Positions 12,017-63,349 of a stretch of DNA of 64,000 nucleotides are shown piece after piece. The DNA is from Syntrophomonadaceae bacterium (GTDB lineage: Bacteria > Bacillota > DSM-12270 > Thermacetogeniales > Thermacetogeniaceae), in contig DULK01000048.1 in NCBI GenBank assembly GCA_012840385.1, positions 1-64,000 on the forward strand, given 5' to 3'. A model generated the notes under the pieces. The model was not told the origin of the DNA. It did not search any database and was given only the letters and a program-made list of their open reading frames with translations. Position numbers and translations under genes: made by a program. Positions within the stretch are counted from its first letter, which is position 1. Every line of letters starts with the position of its first letter.

Positions 12017-12718
12017 ATGAAAGAACAAATTCTAGAACGTTTATGCAATGCCATTGTCGAGTGCGACGTCGAACAAGCGGCCAAAGTGGCGCAGGAAGCG
12101 CTGGATGCAAGTATCCCGGCCATAGAAGCTATCCAAAATGGAGCGGCTAAAGGTCTGGATATCATTGGGTCAAAGTTCAACTCCGGCGAAGCGTATTTAC
12201 CGGAATTAATCCTGGCCGGTGATGCGATGAAAGCGGTCTTTGACGTGCTTTCAAAAGCTCTGAAGGAGGAAAATGCGGATAGTAGTGCTCAACTTGGTAA
12301 GGTTGTGATCGGTACAGTATCGGGGGACCTGCATGATATTGGTAAAAACATCGTTGCAGCACTATTAGCTGTCAATGGTTTTGAAGTTTACGATCTCGGC
12401 ATTAACGTTGAGCCGAAGACTTTTGTTCAAAAAGCTGAGGAAATAGGTGCAACGATTATAGCCGCGTCAACATTATTGACTACATCGATGCCTTATCAGC
12501 AAGATATAGTTCAGTACTTAATTGATTCAGGTCTTAGGGGCAAGTATTACTACGTGGTGGGCGGTGGTCCGGTAACCGCTGACTGGACAATAAAAATCAA
12601 GGCCGACGGGCACGGGTATACCGCAACAGATGCAGTGGAGGTATGCAAGAGATTGGTTAGATCCGGACAAACTCCGGGAACTTTTGAACCGGTCATTCTT
12701 GAATATTATCAAGGTTAG
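12017..12718 (+). CDS. corrinoid protein (MtmC/MtbC-like) A
   Basis: A 233-residue methyltransferase corrinoid protein. Residues 1-85 form the four-helix cap domain (B12-binding_2), and residues 90-215 the Rossmann-like B12-binding domain. The cobalt-ligand motif DxHxxG is present as DLHDIG, with His106 as the lower axial ligand. It should carry a methyl group on Co(III) between a substrate methyltransferase and a tetrahydrofolate methyltransferase. It is followed 11 bases later by an MtmB-family gene, as in methylamine systems of methanogens. A similar protein is at 23312. Start ATG 12017 follows AAGGAGGAG. Confidence 0.95.
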   Translation: MKEQILERLCNAIVECDVEQAAKVAQEALDASIPAIEAIQNGAAKGLDIIGSKFNSGEAYLPELILAGDAMKAVFDVLSKALKEENADSSAQLGKVVIGTVSGDLHDIGKNIVAALLAVNGFEVYDLGINVEPKTFVQKAEEIGATIIAASTLLTTSMPYQQDIVQYLIDSGLRGKYYYVVGGGPVTADWTIKIKADGHGYTATDAVEVCKRLVRSGQTPGTFEPVILEYYQG

Positions 12719-12729
12719 GAGTGAACTCG

Positions 12730-14130
12730 ATGTCATTGAGAACTGAGAAGATATTGAGGAGTCTTGACCGGGCCTATAACGGACCCATCTGTTCGGTTAA
12801 GGATTGGGATACCAAGGTTATACCGCAAACAATCAGAGCCATACTGAAGAAATACGGGCTTGAAAAAACCTGCGATCTGGAAAACCCGATCAACTGCGAT
12901 GACGATCTGGCCGATCAGTTTTTTAGAGCCGGTTGGGAACTGGCGTTGGAACTGGGGATGCTCAACGTTGAGACAGAGAGAATCATCAAGATTACAGAGG
13001 AGGAATTGATCGACACATTAAAGCATAAGCCGAAGGAAATCATTTTGGGAAGCGGAAGCGACCAGGTTATACTCAAGGCGAGGAAACCCGAGGATCCGAC
13101 TCCTCCATTACTGGCTGCATCTCTGGGAATTGTTGTATCAGAGGAATTATATGTACCAATCGTTGAAGGTATCGTTAAATATAAAAAATTGGTTGACGTT
13201 CTTCACGGGCCTTCCCTTGCAACGGTTTATGGCAGGAAAATCCGTTCCGGGACCCCCTACGAGACGCTGATGGGCGGTTATGAGGCAGAGTTGAGGTGCG
13301 AGGCTCTCTGGCGAGCCGGCCGGCCTGGTATGGCCCATACCGGTATTGCAGGAGCGGTCACTGAATATGGCCATTTAGGGGGTGCCGCCGCCATAGGAGG
13401 ACCCGGTAATGTGACGATGGCCCTTTGCCCCGTAGAACTGAAAACCAATTTCGCGGTCTTTCACCGGATTATGATGGCCATCAATAATAATATGCGCATC
13501 CGGGCAGGCGGATTCTCTTACATCGGCGGTTACGCGGGACCGCCGGAAGGCGCAGCATTGGCCAACATTGCCGTCGACTTGCTCATTGCTACCATCCTTG
13601 ATAGCGATTACACAAGCTCCTACGTTTATGATATCCAGTTGCTCGGGAACTGTGGTCGCAAGGCTCTCTGGGCCAACAGTATCGCTATTCAAGCTGTTAG
13701 TAGAAACACCAACCTGATCCGCAACAAGATTGTGAACGAGACTGGCGGCCCATGTACTGACATGTTCATGTATGAGGCGGCAATTGGTTTAATGAACCAT
13801 TGTGTATCAGGCGCATCAAAGACCACGCAGCCGAGATCTGCAGGCGGCAAGTTAACGGATTATCTGACGCCGATGGAAGCTTGGTGGTGCGGTGAGGTAT
13901 TTAAGTCTTGTGCAGGTATGACCCGTAAGCAGGCCAATGAAATTGCCAAGAAGGTTCTTCCCAAGTACGAAGAGCGCTTGAGTAACCCGCCGAAAGGCAA
14001 GAGTGTTCTGGAATGCTTTGATCTGAAGGAAATGAGACCTTCACCGGAGTACCAGAAGCTTTATCTGGACATCAGGAAAGAACTCATTGACTTAGGAATG
14101 CCTCTGGACAAGGTATACGAAGAGTTCTAA
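12730..14130 (+). CDS. MtmB-family methyltransferase lacking pyrrolysine (A)
   Basis: A 466-residue homologue of monomethylamine:corrinoid methyltransferase MtmB (458 residues in Methanosarcina). End-to-end resemblance includes the N-terminal CSVKDWDTKVIP, the glycine-rich GGYAGPPEG and GGPCTDMFMYEAA segments, and the C-terminal PPKGKSVLECFD. The residue at the pyrrolysine position (after GMAH, compare GMGV-Pyl-G in MtmB) is Thr204, codon ACC at 13339-13341, with no in-frame amber codon. The substrate is therefore probably not monomethylamine by the known mechanism. ATG at 12730 is chosen because GGAG lies 8 bases upstream; a GTG at 12721 is the alternative. Transcribed with the corrinoid gene. 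An N-methylated purine-like substrate is my inference from the neighbours. Confidence 0.88.
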   Translation: MSLRTEKILRSLDRAYNGPICSVKDWDTKVIPQTIRAILKKYGLEKTCDLENPINCDDDLADQFFRAGWELALELGMLNVETERIIKITEEELIDTLKHKPKEIILGSGSDQVILKARKPEDPTPPLLAASLGIVVSEELYVPIVEGIVKYKKLVDVLHGPSLATVYGRKIRSGTPYETLMGGYEAELRCEALWRAGRPGMAHTGIAGAVTEYGHLGGAAAIGGPGNVTMALCPVELKTNFAVFHRIMMAINNNMRIRAGGFSYIGGYAGPPEGAALANIAVDLLIATILDSDYTSSYVYDIQLLGNCGRKALWANSIAIQAVSRNTNLIRNKIVNETGGPCTDMFMYEAAIGLMNHCVSGASKTTQPRSAGGKLTDYLTPMEAWWCGEVFKSCAGMTRKQANEIAKKVLPKYEERLSNPPKGKSVLECFDLKEMRPSPEYQKLYLDIRKELIDLGMPLDKVYEEF

Positions 14131-14163
14131 AAATTGTCGGCAGTGTTAGACGATATATAAGCT

Positions 14164-14199
14164 ATGTGAACAACTTCCTATCCCCCTAGTTGTTCACAT
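14164..14199. repeat. 12-bp hairpin after methyltransferase A
   Basis: Perfect inverted repeat 14164-14175 / 14188-14199 (ATGTGAACAACT arms) with a 12-base loop. No T-tract follows on the plus strand, so it may stabilise the transcript end or be a protein site. Confidence 0.5.
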
Positions 14200-14222
14200 G
14201 GTATAAAAAAATGGCTCGGTAA

Positions 14223-14255
14223 TATCAATATGATATACAATATATCATATTGATA
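14223..14255. repeat. 15-bp perfect AT-rich palindrome
   Basis: TATCAATATGATATA at 14223-14237 is repeated inverted at 14241-14255 around a CAA centre. A related core (TTATCATATTGATAA) recurs at 14404-14418. This looks like a repressor or activator operator family, although no assigned regulator is known. Confidence 0.5.
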
Positions 14256-14308
14256 AACACTCAAGGCTATCTGGATAAATGCTTAGGGAATGTGTATTGA
14301 TTCCGGGA

Positions 14309-14335
14309 AGCTGCCCGTCGGGCAGCTATTTTTAT
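14309..14335 (+). terminator. intrinsic terminator of methyltransferase unit A
   Basis: Stem AGCTGCCC/GGGCAGCT (14309-14316 with 14320-14327), three-base loop, followed by ATTTTTATT. It lies about 180 bases after the MtmB-like gene and is the best terminator for that transcript. Confidence 0.8.
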
Positions 14336-14855
14336 TGGACTTTTTGCCGTAATTAATAATGAAGAAAATCTATAATAGCACAACAAGGTACGTTTCAAAG
14401 AGTTATCATATTGATAAGTTTTTCGAAGGACAAGTCGCTAGAGATCGTATAAATCACTTGTTTTAAAGCTTGGCATAAATCTTGCTGTTAGATTACATGG
14501 GAGTGAATTGTCGATGTTTACCACTTCAACCGGTTTCTTGGAGAACTTCTCTATTTCGTGAAAAATACTTACGTATTATAGATTATAGGGGGGTTCTCCA
14601 AGAAAGTTGATAATTAGTAATTAGCTTAATGCAACAAAAACTCATGATGATCAACATAGAACCCTTTTATTCTTAACATCTCTCCTCAACAGGATGTGTG
14701 GCGGGAGTGGATTGATTTGCACTGCCGGGTGTTTGTTTAAAGGAGTCGGGACTATTGTTAAGTTTAAGAAGTAGACAGTAGTGAGTGGCTCAAAGAGATG
14801 AGATACTATTAAGTATACCTGTATACATACCTCAAAGGGTTTGCATAATTAGGTG
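14336..14855. repeat. gene-free stretch with a long-armed inverted repeat
   Basis: No convincing gene lies here. The clearest structure is a 13-bp perfect inverted repeat: TTTCTTGGAGAAC at 14534-14546 and its complement at 14593-14605, with 46 bases between that contain a smaller AATAC/GTATT hairpin. It could be a structured RNA, a decayed mobile-element end pair or an operator. A partial copy of the TATCATATTGATAA motif is at 14404-14418. Confidence 0.4.
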
Positions 14856-14963
14856 CAGGGGCTTATAATAGTAGGCAAAAACATAAAGTAACTTTAGACC
14901 ATAACGAATGTATCCAGCGAGGCAATGAAGCCCCTGTTTGAGTGCTGTATCTCAAATGTGGGG
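14856..14963 (+). promoter_or_regulatory. possible alternating hairpins in leader of importer B
   Basis: CAGGGGCTT at 14856-14864 can pair with AAGCCCCTG at 14928-14936. The latter segment can instead pair downstream (CCCCTGTTTGAG 14931-14942 with CTCAAATGTGGGG 14951-14963, imperfect). Mutually exclusive pairings about 160 bases before an importer operon are what an attenuator would look like. There is no strong T-run after the second hairpin and no known riboswitch consensus, so this is tentative. Confidence 0.3.
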
Positions 14964-15122
14964 CTTATTTGTTTGAGAAACATACTGGTAGGCATGTTTT
15001 TTAAAGATATCCAATGAATAGAGAGCCATTTTTTATCTTTGACCTGGCAACATTGATGCTTAAGGCGCAACATTTCCTCTGAAATGTTTTCGATGCTGAA
15101 TCGGGGAGGACAGTAGGAAGAA

Positions 15123-16649
15123 ATGGAACAGGCAACTGTTGAGATGAGGAATATTACAAAGCGGTTTCCAGGGGTTTTAGCCAATGAAAGGGTAAACTTT
15201 AAGGTAACTGCTGGTGAAGTGCATGCCTTGCTCGGTGAAAACGGGGCGGGTAAAACCACCTTAATGAGCATTCTTTGCGGTTTATATAGGGCTGATGAAG
15301 GAGAAATTTTTATTAAGGGAAAAAAGGTGTCCTTTAGTTCTCCGAGAGATGCAATCAATATGGGAATTGGTATGGTTCACCAGCATTTTCGGTTGGTACG
15401 TCCTTTTACTGTAGCTGAAAATATACTGTTGGGTTCAAACGATGCCGGTTTTATACTAGACATGGACAGAGTGGAAAAAAAAATCGAAAATCTTTCAAAA
15501 AAGTACGGACTGAAAGTAGATACCAAGGCCAAAGTGTGGCAGCTTTCCATTGGTGAGCAACAAAGGGTGGAAATTATAAAAACCCTCTATCAGGGTGCGG
15601 ATATTCTCATACTCGATGAGCCGACGGCTGTACTTACTCCCCAGGAAGCCGAGGAATTGTTTAAGGTACTACAGCAGATTGCTCAGGACGGAAAAGCCGT
15701 TATTCTTATTACCCATAAATTAAATGAAGTCATGAGTGTAGCTGATAGAATTACGGTATTGCGAAATGGTAAATTTGTAGCTACTGTGGAAAAAAAGAAG
15801 ACGAACATTCATGAACTGACAAAATTAATGGTAGGGCGAGAGATGCCGGAAGTAAAGAAAGCGGAGGATTTTTCTCCTGGAGGGGTAGTCTTGGAGTTAA
15901 AAAATGTTAATGCTCTTAACGATAAAGGTTACCCCGCCTTGAGGAATTTTTCACTCTCTGTTCATGAAAGGGAAATTGTAGGGATAGCTGGGGTTGCCGG
16001 TAATGGGCAGCGTGAATTGACTGAAGTGATTAATGGTCTTAGGCTTGCGGAATCCGGGGAAATCTTCATTTTGGGCAAAAATATGACTAATCGTCCAGCG
16101 CAGGAAATAATTGACGCCGGTGTGGCTTTTATTCCTGAAGACAGGTTGGGGATGGGGCTTGTACCCAATTTAAATATTTTAGATAACATCATTTTAAAAA
16201 GCTACCGGAAAGGTTTGTTTTTGAAGGGACCTTTTCTCGACTGGTCATCGATAAGGGAAAAAGCGGAATCTCTAGTTAAAGAATTTGACATCAAAACCCC
16301 AGGTCTAAACCATCCCGTAAAAACAATGTCAGGGGGTCACTTGCAAAGATTGCTGCTTTCGAGAGAAGTTCATTCCTCCCCTAAACTGATCGTTGCGGTC
16401 TATCCCACGCGGGGACTTGATGTCAGCGCTGTAGAGTTTATTCACCATGTTCTTTTAGCGCAAAGAGCGAAAGGCGCGGCAATTTTAATGATTTCCGAGG
16501 ACCTGGATGAAATTTTTAAACTTGCCGATAGAATTGCAGTCTTATATGAGGGTAAAGTCATGGGAACCATGCCTGTAAAAGAGGCAGATTTAAGGGAGAT
16601 CGGCTTGCTGATGGCCGGGGTAGACCGGGGAGGGGAAATGGCATGCTAA
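15123..16649 (+). CDS. BMP-type nucleoside/purine ABC importer, ATPase B
   Basis: A 508-residue double ATPase paralogous over its whole length to the one at 6801. First domain: Walker A GENGAGKTT, signature LSIGEQQRVEI, Walker B ILILDEPTAVL. Second domain: GVAGNGQRELTE, MSGGHLQRLLLSRE and a degenerate Walker B (VAVYPTRGLDVSA), as usual for this family. It starts the second importer operon and overlaps the next gene by 7 bases. The start ATG follows GGGGAGGACAGTAGGAAG. Confidence 0.93.
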   Translation: MEQATVEMRNITKRFPGVLANERVNFKVTAGEVHALLGENGAGKTTLMSILCGLYRADEGEIFIKGKKVSFSSPRDAINMGIGMVHQHFRLVRPFTVAENILLGSNDAGFILDMDRVEKKIENLSKKYGLKVDTKAKVWQLSIGEQQRVEIIKTLYQGADILILDEPTAVLTPQEAEELFKVLQQIAQDGKAVILITHKLNEVMSVADRITVLRNGKFVATVEKKKTNIHELTKLMVGREMPEVKKAEDFSPGGVVLELKNVNALNDKGYPALRNFSLSVHEREIVGIAGVAGNGQRELTEVINGLRLAESGEIFILGKNMTNRPAQEIIDAGVAFIPEDRLGMGLVPNLNILDNIILKSYRKGLFLKGPFLDWSSIREKAESLVKEFDIKTPGLNHPVKTMSGGHLQRLLLSREVHSSPKLIVAVYPTRGLDVSAVEFIHHVLLAQRAKGAAILMISEDLDEIFKLADRIAVLYEGKVMGTMPVKEADLREIGLLMAGVDRGGEMAC

Positions 16650-17731
16650 GTGTATTTGAGAAGAAAAAAAGGATTTTGAGATTTGAAAGGAAATTAACCA
16701 TTTCACCCCTTTCCTATTTAATTGTGCTAGTAATTTCAATCCTTCTTGCTTTAGCGGTTGGCGCCATTTTCATCCGGATTAACAGTTTTAATCCTTTAGA
16801 AGTCTACCAATTTATGTTTGAGAGTTCCTTTGGTTCGGCTTATGGTATTTCAGAGACAGTCGTGAAGGCAATTCCCTTGATGCTGGCGGGATTAGGGGTG
16901 GCTTTGGCTTTTCGTATGTTGCTCTGGAATATCGGCGCAGAAGGCCAGATTTACATGGGAGCCTTTGCTGCGACTGCGATAGCATTATATTTACCCCGTT
17001 TACCTGCCGGTATCATGATTACGGCTATGTTGTTAGCCGGTTTTGCGGGAGGAGCTATATGGAGTCTTATTCCGGGAATAATGCGTGCACGGGCCGGGGT
17101 TAATGAGATTATTACAACCTTGATGTTTAATTATATTGCGATTTTATGGGTTAATTACCTTGTATTCGGGCCTTGGAGCGATCCCGCCAGCTTCAACCAA
17201 CCAATAACCCCAAAGTTTCCCGTTTCGGCTATGCTACCCACCCTACCAGGGTCCCGGATTCATCTGGGAATATTTTTTGGCTTAGTGGCTGCTATAGTTT
17301 TGTACCTGGTATTAACACACACCCGCTGGGGATACGAGGTAAGAGTTACAGGTGAAAGTGAAAGTGCGGCCAAGTACGCTGGGATTAACATTACACGCAA
17401 CATTATGCTTGTCATGCTTATCAGCGGGGGGTTAGCCGGTCTTGCCGGGATGGCAGAGGTGGCAGGCGTTTTAGGACGGCTGCAACAAAATATTTCCCCG
17501 GGCTACGGATACACGGCTATTTTGGTTGCTATTCTTGCAAAGTTAAACCCTTTGGCAGTAGTCATTGTCTCTTTTCTTTTCAGCAGCTTGTTGGTAGGCG
17601 GATATGCCGCTCAGACCATCGGTGTCCCGGCAGCGATAGTTTCCACATTGCAGGGCGCCATTTTGTTTTTTGTTCTAGCAGGAGAGTTTATGGCTAGATT
17701 CAGACTAAGGTATGTGCGAAGGGGGGATTAG
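16643..17731 (+). CDS. BMP-type ABC importer permease B1
   Basis: A 362-residue permease paralogous to that at 8309, with hydrophobic helices from about residue 22 and the conserved loop ISGGLAGLAGMAEVAGV. The start overlaps the ATPase gene end, with GGGGAGGGG 7 bases before it. It should form the pore of importer B with the next gene. Confidence 0.92.
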   Translation: MLSVFEKKKRILRFERKLTISPLSYLIVLVISILLALAVGAIFIRINSFNPLEVYQFMFESSFGSAYGISETVVKAIPLMLAGLGVALAFRMLLWNIGAEGQIYMGAFAATAIALYLPRLPAGIMITAMLLAGFAGGAIWSLIPGIMRARAGVNEIITTLMFNYIAILWVNYLVFGPWSDPASFNQPITPKFPVSAMLPTLPGSRIHLGIFFGLVAAIVLYLVLTHTRWGYEVRVTGESESAAKYAGINITRNIMLVMLISGGLAGLAGMAEVAGVLGRLQQNISPGYGYTAILVAILAKLNPLAVVIVSFLFSSLLVGGYAAQTIGVPAAIVSTLQGAILFFVLAGEFMARFRLRYVRRGD

Positions 17732-17734
17732 CCC

Positions 17735-18673
17735 ATGGATCTGTATTCCATCCTGACGGCAATCTTATCAGCAACGATTATTGCGGGAACCCCAATACTC
17801 TTTGCCAGTCTAGGAGAACTATTGACTGAAAAAGCAGGTGTGTTGAATCTCGGTGTAGAGGGCATGATGATGATCGGCGCTGTTGCGGGATTCCTGGTTT
17901 CTTTTAAAACCATGAATCCGTGGCTTGGTATTATCGCAGCTATGCTTGCAGGGGGCTGTTTAAGTTTGGTACATGCTTTGATGTCTGTTTCCTTGCGAGT
18001 CAATCAAGTCGTTAGCGGGCTTGCCTTGACCATTCTAGGTACCGGCCTTAGCGCTTTTTTGGGCAAGTCTATGATCGGTATTCAAGCACCGGTTACTTTC
18101 AACAAAATGTCAATCCCGGTTTTAAGCAAGATCCCCTTCATCGGCCCTATTCTTTTTCAAAATGATATTCTGGTTTATTTGAGCATCATCCTGGTTTTAG
18201 CCTTTTGGTTTTTGATCTATAAAACAAAGCATGGCTTAAGGTTGCGTGCCGTTGGAGAAAACCCCGCTGCTGCCGATGCTATGGGCGTTAATGTATTTGC
18301 ATTTCGTTATTTATATGTAGTCATAGGGGGGATGCTGGCAGGTTTAGGAGGAGCTTACCTTTCTTTGGTTTACACCTCTACGTGGCTTGAAAATATGACG
18401 GCGGGGAGGGGGTGGATTGCGGTTGCCCTCGTGATTTTCGCTACGTGGAACCCTCTGCGTGCTTTATTGGGAGCCTACATTTTTGGTGGTGTAGAAGCTT
18501 CGGTATTCCGGTTGCAGGCTTTAAACATTCTCAGGATATCGTCATTCTTTTTGAAAATGCTGCCTTACATTTTAACAGTGATTGTGCTCTATTGGGCTAC
18601 CCGTGAAACAGTGCGAAAACGAATTGGAGCCCCGAGTGCTTTAGGACTTCCCTATGAGCGCGAAGAGCGGTAA
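17735..18673 (+). CDS. BMP-type ABC importer permease B2
   Basis: A 312-residue permease paralogous to the one at 9403: the N-terminal TPILFASLGELLTEKAGVLN and the LNLGVEGMMMIGA segment are shared with the family. The start lies 3 bases after the preceding stop, with a GGGGGG Shine-Dalgarno inside the previous gene. Confidence 0.92.
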   Translation: MDLYSILTAILSATIIAGTPILFASLGELLTEKAGVLNLGVEGMMMIGAVAGFLVSFKTMNPWLGIIAAMLAGGCLSLVHALMSVSLRVNQVVSGLALTILGTGLSAFLGKSMIGIQAPVTFNKMSIPVLSKIPFIGPILFQNDILVYLSIILVLAFWFLIYKTKHGLRLRAVGENPAAADAMGVNVFAFRYLYVVIGGMLAGLGGAYLSLVYTSTWLENMTAGRGWIAVALVIFATWNPLRALLGAYIFGGVEASVFRLQALNILRISSFFLKMLPYILTVIVLYWATRETVRKRIGAPSALGLPYEREER

Positions 18674-18758
18674 CCCTGCGGCAGGGTACATGAATTTCAA
18701 GTGTTGTGCGGTATGTGTTTCTTTAGTTAGATAAATTACATTGGGGGAGGGAAAAGTT

Positions 18759-19874
18759 ATGAAGTGGAGATTTCGGTCGATCATCTTTGTAACACTGCTG
18801 ATTTTATGTCTAGGACTTTTGGCAGCCGGTTGTGGCAGCAAACAGACTAATTCCGGACAGGGAGAAAAGAAGGATAAACTCAAAGTAGCCTTTGTCTATC
18901 CTGGCGCAAAGGACGATTTTGGATGGGCCACAACTCAAGAAAATGCCAGGAAAAAGCTCATGAAAGAATTTCCGGATGTTCAGTTCACCGCAGTAGAAAA
19001 TATTCCGGAAGGTAGTGACTCCGCACGCACCTTTACGCAACTATGTGAGCAGGGCTATAAATTAATCATAGCTTCAAGTTTTGGGTACCAGGATGCCGTC
19101 CACGAGGTTGCGAAGAAATACCCCGATGTCAAATTTCTTCACTGTGTCGGGACCAAAACTGCGCCCAATGTATCCACCTATTTCGGAAAAATGTACCAGT
19201 TAAGGTACCTCTCCGGTATTTTAGCAGGAAAGATCACCAAGTCCAACATTATCGGTTACACAGCAGCATATCCTGTTCCGGCATGTATAAGCGGTATAAA
19301 TGCTTTCACACTGGGGGTTAAGTCTGTAAATCCCAATGCTAAAGTAAAGGTCGTCTGGACTAATACCTGGTATGACCCGGCTGTAGAAAAAGAGGCGGCT
19401 AAGAGCCTCCTGGATGCGGGGGCCGATATCATTTCCATGCACCAGGATACCCCCCAGGGGCTCATTGCTGCGGCGGAACGAGGTAAATACGGCTTTGGTT
19501 ATGATAATGACATGACTTCCTTTGCTCCTAAAGCGGCTATCACATCCCTGTACTGGGACTGGACCAAGATTTTTGCACCGGAAGTCCAGGCCGTTTTGGA
19601 TGGTACCTGGAAAAGCCAGCGAATATTTAAGGGTCTGGAAGTCCCCGGCTTCTTAAATCTGGCTCCTTATGGGCCCATGGTTCCGGAAGATGCCAAGAAG
19701 TTGGTTGAGGAGAAAAAGGCCCTGATGGAATCACAAAAATGGGATGTCTTTACAGGGCCAATTAAGGACCAGAATGGTCAGATACGTGTGAAAGAGGGAG
19801 AAAGGCTCTCAGATGACGATATCTGGGGCATGAACTGGCTTGTTGAAGGCGTGGAAGGGAAGCTTCCCCAATGA
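18759..19874 (+). CDS. BMP-family substrate-binding lipoprotein B
   Basis: A 371-residue BMP-family lipoprotein with a signal peptide and lipobox LLAAGC near residue 25, followed by the binding fold starting KVAFVYPGAKDDFGW. ATG at 18759 is used because GGGGGAGGG precedes it. It differs from lipoprotein A in several ligand-region segments (for example SSFGYQDAVHEVAKK against TSFNYGDTVKKLAKE), which would fit a different but related ligand. Last gene of importer B; a terminator follows. Confidence 0.93.
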   Translation: MKWRFRSIIFVTLLILCLGLLAAGCGSKQTNSGQGEKKDKLKVAFVYPGAKDDFGWATTQENARKKLMKEFPDVQFTAVENIPEGSDSARTFTQLCEQGYKLIIASSFGYQDAVHEVAKKYPDVKFLHCVGTKTAPNVSTYFGKMYQLRYLSGILAGKITKSNIIGYTAAYPVPACISGINAFTLGVKSVNPNAKVKVVWTNTWYDPAVEKEAAKSLLDAGADIISMHQDTPQGLIAAAERGKYGFGYDNDMTSFAPKAAITSLYWDWTKIFAPEVQAVLDGTWKSQRIFKGLEVPGFLNLAPYGPMVPEDAKKLVEEKKALMESQKWDVFTGPIKDQNGQIRVKEGERLSDDDIWGMNWLVEGVEGKLPQ

Positions 19875-21872: not shown

Positions 21873-23198
21873 ATGCTGCTGATCGGGAATGGCCCGCTAT
21901 TATCCCTGGTCCCAGGCTCGCCGTATCAACAAGATGGCGCAGTAGCCGTGGAAGGTGATCTCATTGTTGATGTCGGGCCAATTCAAGAACTAAAGGCGCG
22001 TTATCCTGAGGCGGAATGGCTCGATGCCAGGGGTATGTTGATCATGCCCGGTATGACCAACACCCACATGCACCTTTACAGCACTTTCGCCAGAGGGATG
22101 GCTTTGAAGGATCCACCGCCCGGCAATTTTATTGAAATATTGCAGAGGCTCTGGTGGCGTCTGGATAAGGCTTTAACCCTTGAAGATGTATATTACAGCG
22201 CCCTCATTCCTCTGGTAGATTGTATCAAAAGTGGTACGACAACTATCGTAGACCACCATGCCAGTCCCCACGCTGTACAGGGCAGCCTGGAGATCATCGC
22301 AAGGGCAGCCGAAGAAACTGGTGTGCGAACCTGCCTGGCCTACGAGGTTTCCGACCGTGACGGCGAGGAAATAATGCGTCAGGGTATTGAAGAAAATATC
22401 ATGGCTATAAAAAAGTACCGAGGAAAGGAAGGCCTTTTGTCAGCCACCTTTGGCCTGCATGCTTCCTTAACCCTATCCGACGCAGCCCTCGCGGCCTGTA
22501 GGGAGGCCGAAGCGGATGTGGATAGCGGCTTTCATATTCATGTTGCCGAAGGAATCGAGGATGTGGAAAACGCCCTTGAACGTTCCGGCAAGCGTGTGGT
22601 GGAACGCCTGGCGGACCATGGTATCTTAGGTCCAAAAACCATAGCTGCCCACTGTGTTCATATAACAGAAAAAGAGATTTCCATTCTAAAGGAAACCGGA
22701 GCCATGGTCGTCCACAACCCAGAGTCCAATATGAGCAATGCGGTGGGTTGTTCTCCGGTTGGTGATTTGCTGGAGGCAGGAGTACCGGTCGGGCTTGGGA
22801 CAGATGGTTATACCAGCGACATGTTTGAATCGCTAAAAGTGGCAAACTTGTTGCGCAAACACGCTTCGGGGAACCCCAGTAGCGGCTGGGCGGAAGTACC
22901 TGCAATGGCCTTTGCCAATAACCGCTTTATCCTGTCCAGGTTTTTCCCCCATCCCGTGGGCCGGTTGGAACCGGGGGCCTACGCCGATATCATCCTTGTA
23001 AACTATAAGAGTCCGACCCCCCTAAATGCAGATAACTGGTTTGGCCACCTGCTTTTTGGCTTCAACGGAGCCCTGGTGGATACGACAATTGTAGGCGGAA
23101 AAGTTCTCATGAGGGGACGAGAGCTGCTTTATCTGGATGAAGAGGCAATTGCTGCCAAGGCCCGGGAATTGGCAGCCCGGATGTGGGAACGGTTCTAA
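21873..23198 (+). CDS. ssnA: SsnA-type amidohydrolase
   Basis: A 441-residue amidohydrolase matching the SsnA group (putative aminohydrolases linked to purine and selenium-dependent molybdenum-hydroxylase clusters). Metal-binding motifs: TNTHMHLYSTFARGM near residue 60, FHIHVAE near 215, AHCVHITEKE near 255 and GLGTDGYTSDMFE near 305. It is cytoplasmic and should hydrolyse a C-N bond of a ring amine or cyclic amide. The start ATG has GGAGG 8 bases before it. It heads the second methyltransferase/hydroxylase set and parallels the amidohydrolase at 2978. SsnA's precise reaction is not established to my knowledge. Confidence 0.88.
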   Translation: MLLIGNGPLLSLVPGSPYQQDGAVAVEGDLIVDVGPIQELKARYPEAEWLDARGMLIMPGMTNTHMHLYSTFARGMALKDPPPGNFIEILQRLWWRLDKALTLEDVYYSALIPLVDCIKSGTTTIVDHHASPHAVQGSLEIIARAAEETGVRTCLAYEVSDRDGEEIMRQGIEENIMAIKKYRGKEGLLSATFGLHASLTLSDAALAACREAEADVDSGFHIHVAEGIEDVENALERSGKRVVERLADHGILGPKTIAAHCVHITEKEISILKETGAMVVHNPESNMSNAVGCSPVGDLLEAGVPVGLGTDGYTSDMFESLKVANLLRKHASGNPSSGWAEVPAMAFANNRFILSRFFPHPVGRLEPGAYADIILVNYKSPTPLNADNWFGHLLFGFNGALVDTTIVGGKVLMRGRELLYLDEEAIAAKARELAARMWERF

Positions 23199-23311: not shown

Positions 23312-23980
23312 ATGGGAGATATTTTTAACAGGATTTCAGAAGCAGTCAGGTATGGGCAAAGGGATGAGATCGAAAAGCTTGCCGATGAAGTTATCGCCAA
23401 TAAAATCAACCCTATCGATGCCATTCAGAAAGGGGGAGTGGATGGATTAAAAAAATTAGGGGATGCTTTTGAAAACCTCGAAGCTTTTCTGCCGGAGCTT
23501 ATGGCCGGCGGCGAAGCCATGAAACTTTTGATAAATAAATTGACTCCTTATTTGGAGAGCGATAAAAGCGCACTTGAAGGTACAGTGGTTATTGGAACGG
23601 TCAAAGGTGACCTTCATGATATTGGAAAGAATTTAGTTGCAACGCAGCTTGCCGTAAACGGATTCAATGTCATTGACCTGGGTGTTGACGTTAGCAACAA
23701 TAAATTTATCGAAGAGGCTGAAGCAAATAAGGCAGATATAATAGCTCTTTCATCCCTGCTTACGACTTCTGCTTATTACATTCAAGAGTTTATAGAAAGA
23801 TTAGAAAAGGATGGCTTGAGGTCAAAGTACAAGATTATTGTCGGTGGAGGGCCGATTGAGCCTGAGTGGGCAAGAGAAATTGGCGCGGATGGATATTCTA
23901 GAACTGCTGTTGGCGCAGTGAAAGTGTGCAAAGAATTAATGAAGCAAGATAAAATTACCGAGATCATAATTGGTGACTAA
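23312..23980 (+). CDS. corrinoid protein (MtmC/MtbC-like) B
   Basis: A 222-residue corrinoid protein with the helical cap (residues 1-80) and B12-binding domain. The cobalt-ligand motif is DLHDIGKN near residue 100. It is paralogous to the protein at 12017. Start ATG 23312 follows AAAAAAGGGAGTGAAG; another ATG four bases earlier is out of frame. The MtmB-family gene begins 15 bases after its stop, so the two are co-transcribed and are likely partners. Confidence 0.95.
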   Translation: MGDIFNRISEAVRYGQRDEIEKLADEVIANKINPIDAIQKGGVDGLKKLGDAFENLEAFLPELMAGGEAMKLLINKLTPYLESDKSALEGTVVIGTVKGDLHDIGKNLVATQLAVNGFNVIDLGVDVSNNKFIEEAEANKADIIALSSLLTTSAYYIQEFIERLEKDGLRSKYKIIVGGGPIEPEWAREIGADGYSRTAVGAVKVCKELMKQDKITEIIIGD

Positions 23981-23995
23981 AGGGAGGGATCAGGG

Positions 23996-25387
23996 TTGAG
24001 TTCAGCAGTTAGAGTTTTAAAAACATTGGAAAAGGCCAGAACAGGCGAAAGATGTACAGTGAAGGAATGGGACTATGAAATTGTTCCGAAGACCCTGAAT
24101 GAAATTTTGAAGAAATATAATTTGGAGAAAACATGTGATATCAACAAACCAGTCAATGAAGATATGGAGCTTGCTGACAGATTCTATCAGGCTGGGCTGG
24201 AAGCAGCCTTACGGCTTGGTTTTCTCTGCGTGGATACAGAAACTATCGTAAAGGTCAAAGAGGAAGAACTACTGAGGAGTTTACAACAGGTACCGTCTAG
24301 TTTTACTATCGGTGAGGGAAGCGAGCAGGTAACCGTCAAGGCAAGAAGACCGAGCGACGGGCAACCCCCGGTATATTTTGGACCATTGTCAATCCAAATG
24401 AACGAAGAGTACTATGTTCCCGTAGCACAGGGGATCTTGATGAGCCGCCTGGTGGATGGCCAAGAGGGTCCTTCGCTTGATACGGTTATGGACTGCCCCT
24501 TATTGGCGAATAGCCCTTATGAAAGCTTTGCTGGTATTTACGAGGCACGTCTGAGGAAAGAGGCTCAGTGGAGAGCAGGCCGTGTAGGTATCGGCAATGC
24601 TATAGTGGCCAGCAGCAGCACTGAATATGGCTTTTTAGCCGGTTTTGCATTATATAAACCACCCCAGATCGTTTTGTGTTTGAACCCGGCTTCAATGAAA
24701 ATAAACTATGTCAACTTGCATAAAACTATTGTTGCCCATGAATACGGGCATTATGTAAGGACCGAATCACCTACTATGATCGGGGGATATACGGGTGGCC
24801 CCGAAGGAAGCGCATTGGCTTCCATTGCAACTGACTTATTGCAGTATCATTTCCATGGTACCCATCTGGCAGGTTCTCCGACCTATGATCTCCGCTATGC
24901 TGGAAACTGTGGGCGTCATGCATTGTGGGCACAAACCATTGCCAGTCAAGCGATCTCCAGGAACACCAATATTCTTATGAACAAGACAATCAACCAGGTT
25001 TCCGGACCGTGCACCGAAATGTTCTTCCTTGAAACTATAGCCGGATTTGTAGCAGCAGGGGTTTCTGGCCTTGAATTTACCATCAGTCCAAGATCGGGTG
25101 GTGGAAGGCACAAGAACCACCTCACGCCCTTCGAAGCCTGGTACAGTTCGGCGGTATTCAAGGGTTCTGCCGGGCTCAGTGCTGAGAAAGCCAACGAAAT
25201 TCTCAATGAGGTATTACCGAAATACGAGAAAGAACTGAGAAACCCACCTAAGGGAAAGAGTTTCCCGGAATGCTTTAATGTAAAGACATTACAACCTACC
25301 GAGGAATACCTGAAAATGTATCTTAGAATGAGAGAATATGCTATTAGTCTGGGTATTCCTATGCCTCCTGATGGCGTAGTGTCCTAA
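23996..25387 (+). CDS. MtmB-family methyltransferase lacking pyrrolysine (B)
   Basis: A 463-residue MtmB-family protein, co-linear with the one at 12730 (both have STEYG/VTEYG after the key site, GGYTGGPEG, RNTNILMNK, SGPCTEMFFLE, NPPKGKSFPECF). At the pyrrolysine position it has Ala202, codon GCT at 24599-24601. The start is TTG at 23996 behind GGGAGGGATCAGGG. The two paralogues differ strongly around the key residue (GMAHTGIAGAV against GIGNAIVASSS), which suggests different substrates. It should methylate corrinoid protein B. The flanking SsnA and xanthine-dehydrogenase-type genes point to a purine-like methyl donor, by inference. Confidence 0.88.
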   Translation: MSSAVRVLKTLEKARTGERCTVKEWDYEIVPKTLNEILKKYNLEKTCDINKPVNEDMELADRFYQAGLEAALRLGFLCVDTETIVKVKEEELLRSLQQVPSSFTIGEGSEQVTVKARRPSDGQPPVYFGPLSIQMNEEYYVPVAQGILMSRLVDGQEGPSLDTVMDCPLLANSPYESFAGIYEARLRKEAQWRAGRVGIGNAIVASSSTEYGFLAGFALYKPPQIVLCLNPASMKINYVNLHKTIVAHEYGHYVRTESPTMIGGYTGGPEGSALASIATDLLQYHFHGTHLAGSPTYDLRYAGNCGRHALWAQTIASQAISRNTNILMNKTINQVSGPCTEMFFLETIAGFVAAGVSGLEFTISPRSGGGRHKNHLTPFEAWYSSAVFKGSAGLSAEKANEILNEVLPKYEKELRNPPKGKSFPECFNVKTLQPTEEYLKMYLRMREYAISLGIPMPPDGVVS

Positions 25388-46520: not shown

Positions 46521-46536
46521 TGCAAAAAGAATGCCA
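46521..46536 (-). promoter_or_regulatory. sigma-54 promoter, leftward unit
   Basis: On the minus strand TGGCAT-N5-TTGCA, with the required GG-N10-GC spacing, 30 bases before the ThiN ribosome-binding site. Drives the ThiN/AOR/MoaD/ThDP genes. Confidence 0.85.
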
Positions 46537-63106: not shown

Positions 63107-63349
63107 GAATACTGCAAAGACGAGGAACGGGAAGAGTAGGTACAAATGCTTTCCTCAGAGAGGAACCGTCACCGGCTGCAAGCGGTTCTGGCAAAGCGGT
63201 ACCGAAAGTGCGCCCGGGAGTCGTGGCGCTGAAACCAGTAGGCGCCGACGGTTACAACCGTTATCTGAGATGAGGGGTTGGCTTTGCCTGAAACAGAGTG
63301 GAACCGCGGAAGATATCCTTTCGTCTCTGAAGATGAAAGGATTTTTTTA
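63107..63349 (+). ncRNA. T-box leader, cysteine specific
   Basis: Stem I hallmarks are present: GAGGAACGGGAAGAGTAG, AGAGAGGAACCG and the apical GGCTGCAAGCGG. The specifier is read as TGC (Cys) at 63209-63211 within GAAAGTGCG. The T-box TGGAACCGCGG is at 63299-63309; its TGGA would pair with the UCCA end of tRNA-Cys, which has U as discriminator. The terminator stem is 63315-63326 with 63331-63342, followed by a T7 run. Uncharged tRNA-Cys should turn on cysE. Confidence 0.93.

Follow-up and report, generated by a model that had tools for sequence, protein, structure and literature searches.

A putative sigma-54 enhancer and promoter region of the YgeV/DioR type upstream of an ABC importer in a Syntrophomonadaceae bacterium

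In a stretch of 64,000 nucleotides from a Syntrophomonadaceae bacterium (here called the window), the intergenic interval of 992 bases between an MtmB-like gene (12721-14130) and the ATPase gene of an ABC importer (importer B, start at 15123) very probably comprises the promoter of importer B and its upstream activating sequences, on which an activator of purine catabolism of the YgeV/DioR type would act. We base this on comparisons of the interval with a syntenic relative, with the rest of the same genome, with other genomes of the phylum and with Escherichia coli K-12. An unexplained intergenic stretch would become a testable circuit with one activator, one short site and one promoter class.

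Results

The sequence-only reading had listed several structured elements in this interval, and all of them are present (Table 1): a terminator, a perfect 12-bp hairpin (14164-14199), a palindrome with 15-bp arms and a 3-base centre (14223-14255), a second copy of its core (14 bases, 14404-14417), a 13-bp inverted repeat with a spacer of 46 bases (arms 14534-14546 and 14593-14605), and two mutually exclusive GC pairings (14856-14864 with 14928-14936 versus the hairpin 14928-14942/14951-14966). The inverted repeats go beyond chance, because the interval holds four perfect ones (arms of at least 9, spacer of at most 60 bases) against a mean of 0.30 and a maximum of 2 in 300 dinucleotide shuffles, one of which had arms of at least 12 bases and none arms of at least 13. 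A single open reading frame (ORF) of at least 60 amino acids overlaps the interval (14894-15358, minus strand), and it is mostly antisense to the importer gene. The tRNA/tmRNA scan returned none, the comparison with phage and plasmid DNA gave no match, and a mobile element was rejected because a second copy of the interval is absent from the genome. Two weak genomic matches (17 and 29 bases), which overlap at about 14910-14942, were taken as chance: C71:8947 (E 0.67), located within a helicase-like ORF (named by eye), and C38:6605 (E 0.05).

Table 1. Coordinates of features in and next to the interval (positions of the window)
Feature	Position	Strand	Remark
Stem-loop, 12 perfect bp (15 pairs as RNA)	14161..14202	+	just 3' of MtmB-like gene
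Enhancer site 1 (predicted), TATCAATATGATA	14223..14235	.	kept in L035
Enhancer site 2 (predicted), TATCATATTGATA	14243..14255	.	20 bp from site 1
Intrinsic terminator of upstream corrinoid/MtmB-like genes	14309..14327	+	terminator scan, fold
Enhancer site 3 (predicted), TATCATATTGATA, the second core	14404..14416	.	kept in L035
Sigma-54 -24/-12 promoter, TGGCATAAATCTTGCT	14471..14486	+	perfect consensus match
Strong hairpin, 13-bp perfect core, in predicted leader	14526..14610	+	fold; not conserved
Sigma-70-like TTTGCA-18-TATAAT, 10/12	14840..14869	+	weak evidence
GC hairpin, exclusive with pairing 14856-14864/14928-14936	14928..14966	+	without L035 counterpart
Importer B: ATPase, two permeases, BMP-type binding protein	15123..19874	+	predicted target
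Site sequence to set against published DioR motif, TTATCAWWWTGATAA			

The palindrome consists of two copies of TATCA-N3-TGATA (starting at 14223 and 14243, 20 bp from centre to centre), and this 13-bp site occurs a third time at 14404, as the second core. For the window, 0.03 sites would be expected where three are present, and none of 100 shuffles had three; when the AT-rich interval was shuffled 5000 times, one site turned up in 12 cases and two in none. The whole genome (2.7 Mb) has eight perfect sites, against none of the reversed control: three in the window, three on contig C71, and one each on C1 and C104. Two of the C71 sites lie behind an activator gene and one (11048) inside the preceding ORF, the C1 site lies within an ORF, and the context of the C104 site was read from the sequence without ORF calling; the sites on C1, C104 and C71:11048 were taken as chance. 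With one mismatch allowed, the genome contains 69 sites against 27 of the reversed control, therefore isolated one-mismatch sites carry little meaning. Across 29 sites the form is mostly TTATCA-WWW-TGATAA, ten bases of which are fixed by the way the sites were selected. That such elements may be operators, as had been proposed, fits the palindrome and the second core: the sites are kept in a syntenic relative and, within this genome, recur next to a gene for an activator. Judged by these sequence comparisons, the two elements are best explained as putative sigma-54 enhancer sites.

Overlooked by the earlier reading was a perfect match to the -24/-12 consensus (Table 1), which begins 54 bases past the third site. 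TGGCAYN5TTGC occurs 24 times in the genome against 8 times for the reversed control, rpoN is present (C51:15593-16072, E 1.5e-61), and six strong sigma-54 activators are encoded among 11 domain matches. The position of the promoter predicts a transcription start near 14497 and with it a leader of about 626 nt, compared with about 345 nt in the syntenic relative (L035, the same contig as G001:C7); such a long leader could hold further control. Neither a 15-aa leader ORF (14515, behind GGGAG) nor a second GG-N10-GC match near 15045 is kept in L035, as judged by eye. Importer B could also be transcribed from the sigma-70-like sequence at 14840; in 13800-15500, six such sequences were found against 4.1 in shuffles. 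Elsewhere in the window, a second sigma-54 activator (PF00158; 40022-41944, plus strand) and a second perfect -24/-12 match (46521-46536, minus strand) face what appears by eye to be a minus-strand aldehyde:ferredoxin oxidoreductase operon.

The activator gene on C71 (L061:11411-13270) encodes a protein with an AAA+ and a helix-turn-helix domain (PF00158 and PF02954), in which GAFTGA is present. Located 3' of it are a pair of sites, one at 13263 with one mismatch and a perfect one at 13284, what by eye is a GC-rich hairpin with a run of T, a third site at 13442 (TATCATAATGATA, the same as the ygfK site of E. coli) and, 53 bases past the third site, a perfect sigma-54 promoter at 13508. Downstream of this promoter follow glyA (SHMT), two ORFs, the second of which encodes a PLP enzyme (Pfam), and a YgeY-family hydrolase gene as part of the operon. 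The site pair, terminator, third site and promoter occur in the same order on C71 as in the window, at nearly equal distances. In G001, a member of the same genus, the window locus and the activator are both on contig C7, and the activator is 23,571 bases from importer A; the distance here would be 23,708 bases if C71 and C36 adjoin. Because these two values agree, C71 and C36 are probably chromosomal neighbours, and the activator gene probably lies some tens of kb upstream of the window region on the chromosome.

Comparative alignment of the interval, which the sequence-only reading had suggested as a check, gave a split result for L035, the only syntenic relative: it keeps the three sites, the terminator and the promoter and lacks the other hairpins and the GC pairings. 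Sites 1 and 2 are spaced 21 bp there (20 bp in the window), the promoter reads TGGCATAGATCTTGCT, and the terminator has kept its stem and changed its loop. BLAST against L035 gave no counterpart of the 12-bp hairpin; 14487-14598, where the 13-bp inverted repeat largely lies, and 14646-15028, which includes the GC pairings, also went unmatched. Two leader stretches align, 14599-14645 (47 bases, 85%) and 15029-15121 (the last 93 bases before the importer gene, 83%), the sequence between them being missing from L035; we propose nothing for these beyond ordinary leader sequence. Among 30 loci with importer homologues (1.5-kb flanks), sites were found near two, the window and its G001 orthologue, which counts against the circuit. 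Three other loci with the MtmB-like gene (L036, L037 and L038) had no perfect site in the stretches examined, therefore the MtmB-like gene is not generally tied to the sites.

The hairpins 14161-14202 (-20.6 kcal/mol, z -8.6) and 14526-14610 (-35.6, z -6.3) fold far better than shuffles, and the GC hairpin 14928-14966 folds well (-24.6, z -4.5). In L035, the region after the MtmB-like gene folds into other, weaker hairpins (z -2.6), and the counterpart of the 14526-14610 hairpin and the remaining stretch both have z +1.2. At gathering score, Rfam matched the window once, in a T-box leader far from the interval (63114-63331, plus strand, 113.5 bits); with E up to 10, the interval had four sub-threshold matches, the best of which (E 0.042) was a plant microRNA family on both strands, i.e., the hairpin itself. 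An unknown small RNA, which had been suggested for this interval and which could be, or include, the 14161-14202 or the 14526-14610 hairpin, finds its argument in the first two z values; however, neither the 12-bp hairpin nor the 13-bp inverted repeat has a counterpart in L035, no Rfam family reaches the gathering score in the interval, and related DNA is absent from 18 other genomes of the family that were searched, so that we regard a small RNA as extremely improbable. The suggested attenuator fares little differently and is very unlikely: RNA from the sigma-54 promoter would pair 14856-14864 with 14928-14936, whereas RNA from the sigma-70-like promoter, lacking that arm, would form the 14928-14966 hairpin and terminate. 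Both GC pairings do exist, the GC hairpin folds well and the sigma-70-like sequence matches at 10 of 12 positions, but the minimum-energy fold of the longer stretch still favours the local hairpin, which is missing from the list of the terminator scan, Rfam gives no match, and the whole of 14646-15028 is without alignment in L035. A conserved alternative structure is absent from this one syntenic relative, and it is predicted folding from which both ideas would have to draw. The 12-bp hairpin, the 13-bp inverted repeat and the GC pairings are real and unconserved, and no function is assigned to them.

We searched 398 genomes of the phylum for a pattern of TATCA-N3-TGATA followed after 40-70 bases by a sigma-54 promoter and found it at 16 places in 11 genomes (reversed control 0), with an additional perfect site upstream at 13 of the 16. 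An activator of the family is encoded on the same contig as a pattern match in 10 of the 11 genomes (70-175 bp from the match in seven, 0.67 and 1.1 kb in two and 7.6 kb in one) and on another contig in G092; some pattern matches, the window's among them, are not adjacent to the activator. The family was also matched in four of seven comparison genomes without the pattern, and its mere presence is not telling. In the stretches examined of seven genomes with activators at least 63% identical, perfect sites occur in five; G022 and G018 (63-67% identical) have one-mismatch sites only, a point against the circuit. First ORFs, scanned at 10 of the 16 places, encode the xanthine permease PbuX (three genomes), carbamate kinase, an amidohydrolase and a PLP enzyme, and also a serine dehydratase alpha chain, an octopine dehydrogenase-like protein, an FAD-binding protein and Peripla_BP_6, which are without a plain purine link and likewise count against it. 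By eye, G010, G005, G018 and G001 have SHMT-like genes next, and G022 has a xanthine dehydrogenase-like operon there. Four contigs (G170:C3, G289:C20, G243:C36 and G022:C20) each carry two YgeV-family activators, 8 to 23 kb apart, from different subgroups (one 63-69%, the other 46-47% identical to the C71 activator), which may split a purine cluster between two signals.

We compared the sites with the recognition helix of the activator. Among only the 30 activator loci found by protein similarity, a perfect site lies at most 1.1 kb downstream in 5 of 7 with the helix GI[GS][IL]AT; none of the 13 with another helix and none of the 10 whose helix was unparsed has one (p 0.0014 with the unparsed left out, an optimistic value owing to the relatedness of the loci). 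A larger count of 44 loci, biased by the addition of 14 loci from 14 genomes of which seven were chosen with and seven without the pattern, gave a perfect site in 10 of 12 with GI[GS][IL]AT and 2 of 22 with other helices (10 unparsed). The two activators with another helix and a nearby perfect site also count against the circuit and would agree with another regulator, e.g., a repressor, using the TATCA sites while one of the five other strong activators among the six encoded in the genome serves the sigma-54 promoter. We consider this quite unlikely, as the same sites adjoin the C71 activator and related activators elsewhere and are separated from the promoter by similar distances.

Over its full length, the C71 activator shares 37% identity with E. 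coli YgeV (616 aligned positions, E 2e-124). For K-12, one mismatch was allowed, which was our choice, and four intergenic regions (1684 bases) then contain five sites with 0-1 mismatch where the frequency in 250 kb of K-12 sequence from elsewhere predicts 0.108; the ygfK site (TATCATAATGATA) is the sole perfect match among the five. In 28 kb of K-12, five sites with 0-1 mismatch were found against 0.68 expected from shuffles and 1.79 from real sequence (16 sites in 250 kb of real K-12 sequence). One of these five, a perfect match within ygeX (L117:9787), was counted as chance. The best-scoring K-12 sequences of our scan are at xdhA (tied), ygeW and ygfK, three of the places where sigma-54 ChIP peaks are published (xdhA, ygeW, ygfK and ygfT; PMC4591121). 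The YgeV iModulon includes the operons of the xdhA, ygeW, ygfK and ygfT-uacT regions (PMC12132413), and ygeV-ygeW is listed by an RpoN in-vitro screen (PMC8743547). In the literature searched, supplements excepted, we found no published DNA motif for E. coli YgeV.

The binding protein of importer B is closest to 3s99 (E 9e-96), followed by the atrazine binding protein 6pi5 (E 5e-93), which is reported with bound guanine (PMC6834077), and importer B is a probable carrier of purines. The window also encodes SsnA, a marker of purine/selenium metabolism (21873-23198, plus strand), with no perfect TATCA-N3-TGATA site near it. Two corrinoid protein/MtmB-family methyltransferase pairs without a pyrrolysine codon lie at 12017-14130 and 23312-25387 (both plus strand), the first with Thr at the pyrrolysine position of solved MtmB. 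MtmB-like relatives in L036 (89%) and L037 (85%) likewise lie near what by eye are amidohydrolase and nucleobase-type genes; the substrate may be a methylated purine-type compound.

Discussion

The interval would thus be made up of the end of the corrinoid/MtmB-like genes, marked by the terminator, and of a region that controls importer B. What was computed directly is that the sites and the promoter exist, that one relative has kept them, that they recur next to activator genes and that the genome has rpoN; from this we infer the following course of events. The YgeV/DioR-family activator from C71 would bind the three TATCA-N3-TGATA sites, of which sites 1 and 2, 20 bp apart, would be about two helical turns from each other. 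DNA looping would take the bound activator to the sigma-54 RNA polymerase at 14471-14486, where its ATPase would open the promoter, and importer B would be made together with the glyA/YgeY-type operon upon a presumed purine-related signal. The terminator between the sites would block read-through from the upstream genes. The palindromes are ordinary in kind and, by sequence comparison, well supported as putative sigma-54 enhancer sites; they are useful in that they allow an operator to be predicted, in testable form, across phyla. Sites that match them occur at genes for the anaerobic breakdown of purines in other bacteria, E. coli among them. A bolder reading, which we hold to be doubtful, is that TTATCA-WWW-TGATAA might be an ancient enhancer code that Bacillota and E. 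coli have in common for the anaerobic catabolism of purines, as well as the operator of orphan YgeV, and that the circuit here might have captured an ABC nucleobase importer beside a pyrrolysine-free MtmB-type corrinoid methyltransferase, which would point to one pathway of methylated-purine uptake and demethylation.

With classical sigma-54 enhancers, the predicted sites share the arrangement of inverted repeats upstream of a -24/-12 promoter, but the classical form is given as TGT-N10-12-ACA (PMC6615313), whereas TATCA/TGATA half-sites occur here. E. coli YgeV (also IsrR, under which name pathogenic strains were described as having an indole-related regulator of virulence; PMC9426417) has the same recognition helix as the C71 activator, LGIGIATLYRK, and 0-1-mismatch sites upstream of xdhA, ygeW and ygfK and in ygfT-uacT; however, its target genes differ, the K-12 sites are mostly one-mismatch, and no BMP importer occurs in the K-12 stretches examined. 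Our analysis predicts the DNA site of this regulator, whose iModulon and sigma-54 peaks are already published.

The DioR regulon was predicted in Clostridiales with its function given as 'Unknown' (Nie et al. 2019, PMC6615313), and its described targets include pbuX, ygeW-ygfK-ssnA-ygeY and dpaL-pyrC-argE; promoter mapping in C. difficile placed DioR1 with pbuX and DioR2 with dpaL (PMC7438776), and a later paper points to a purine link (PMC11448449). Drawn from the description and targets of the regulon, with the family assigned via E. coli YgeV, the likeness extends to a sigma-54 activator, upstream sites and -24/-12 promoters, to pbuX, which is a listed target and is preceded by three of our pattern matches, and to ygeY, which is listed as well and has a family member in the C71 operon. 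In contrast, a BMP-type ABC importer is absent from its target table (PMC6615313). The window region is best seen as a new DioR-type target of this kind, which would add an ABC importer to the regulon and supports purine catabolism as its function.
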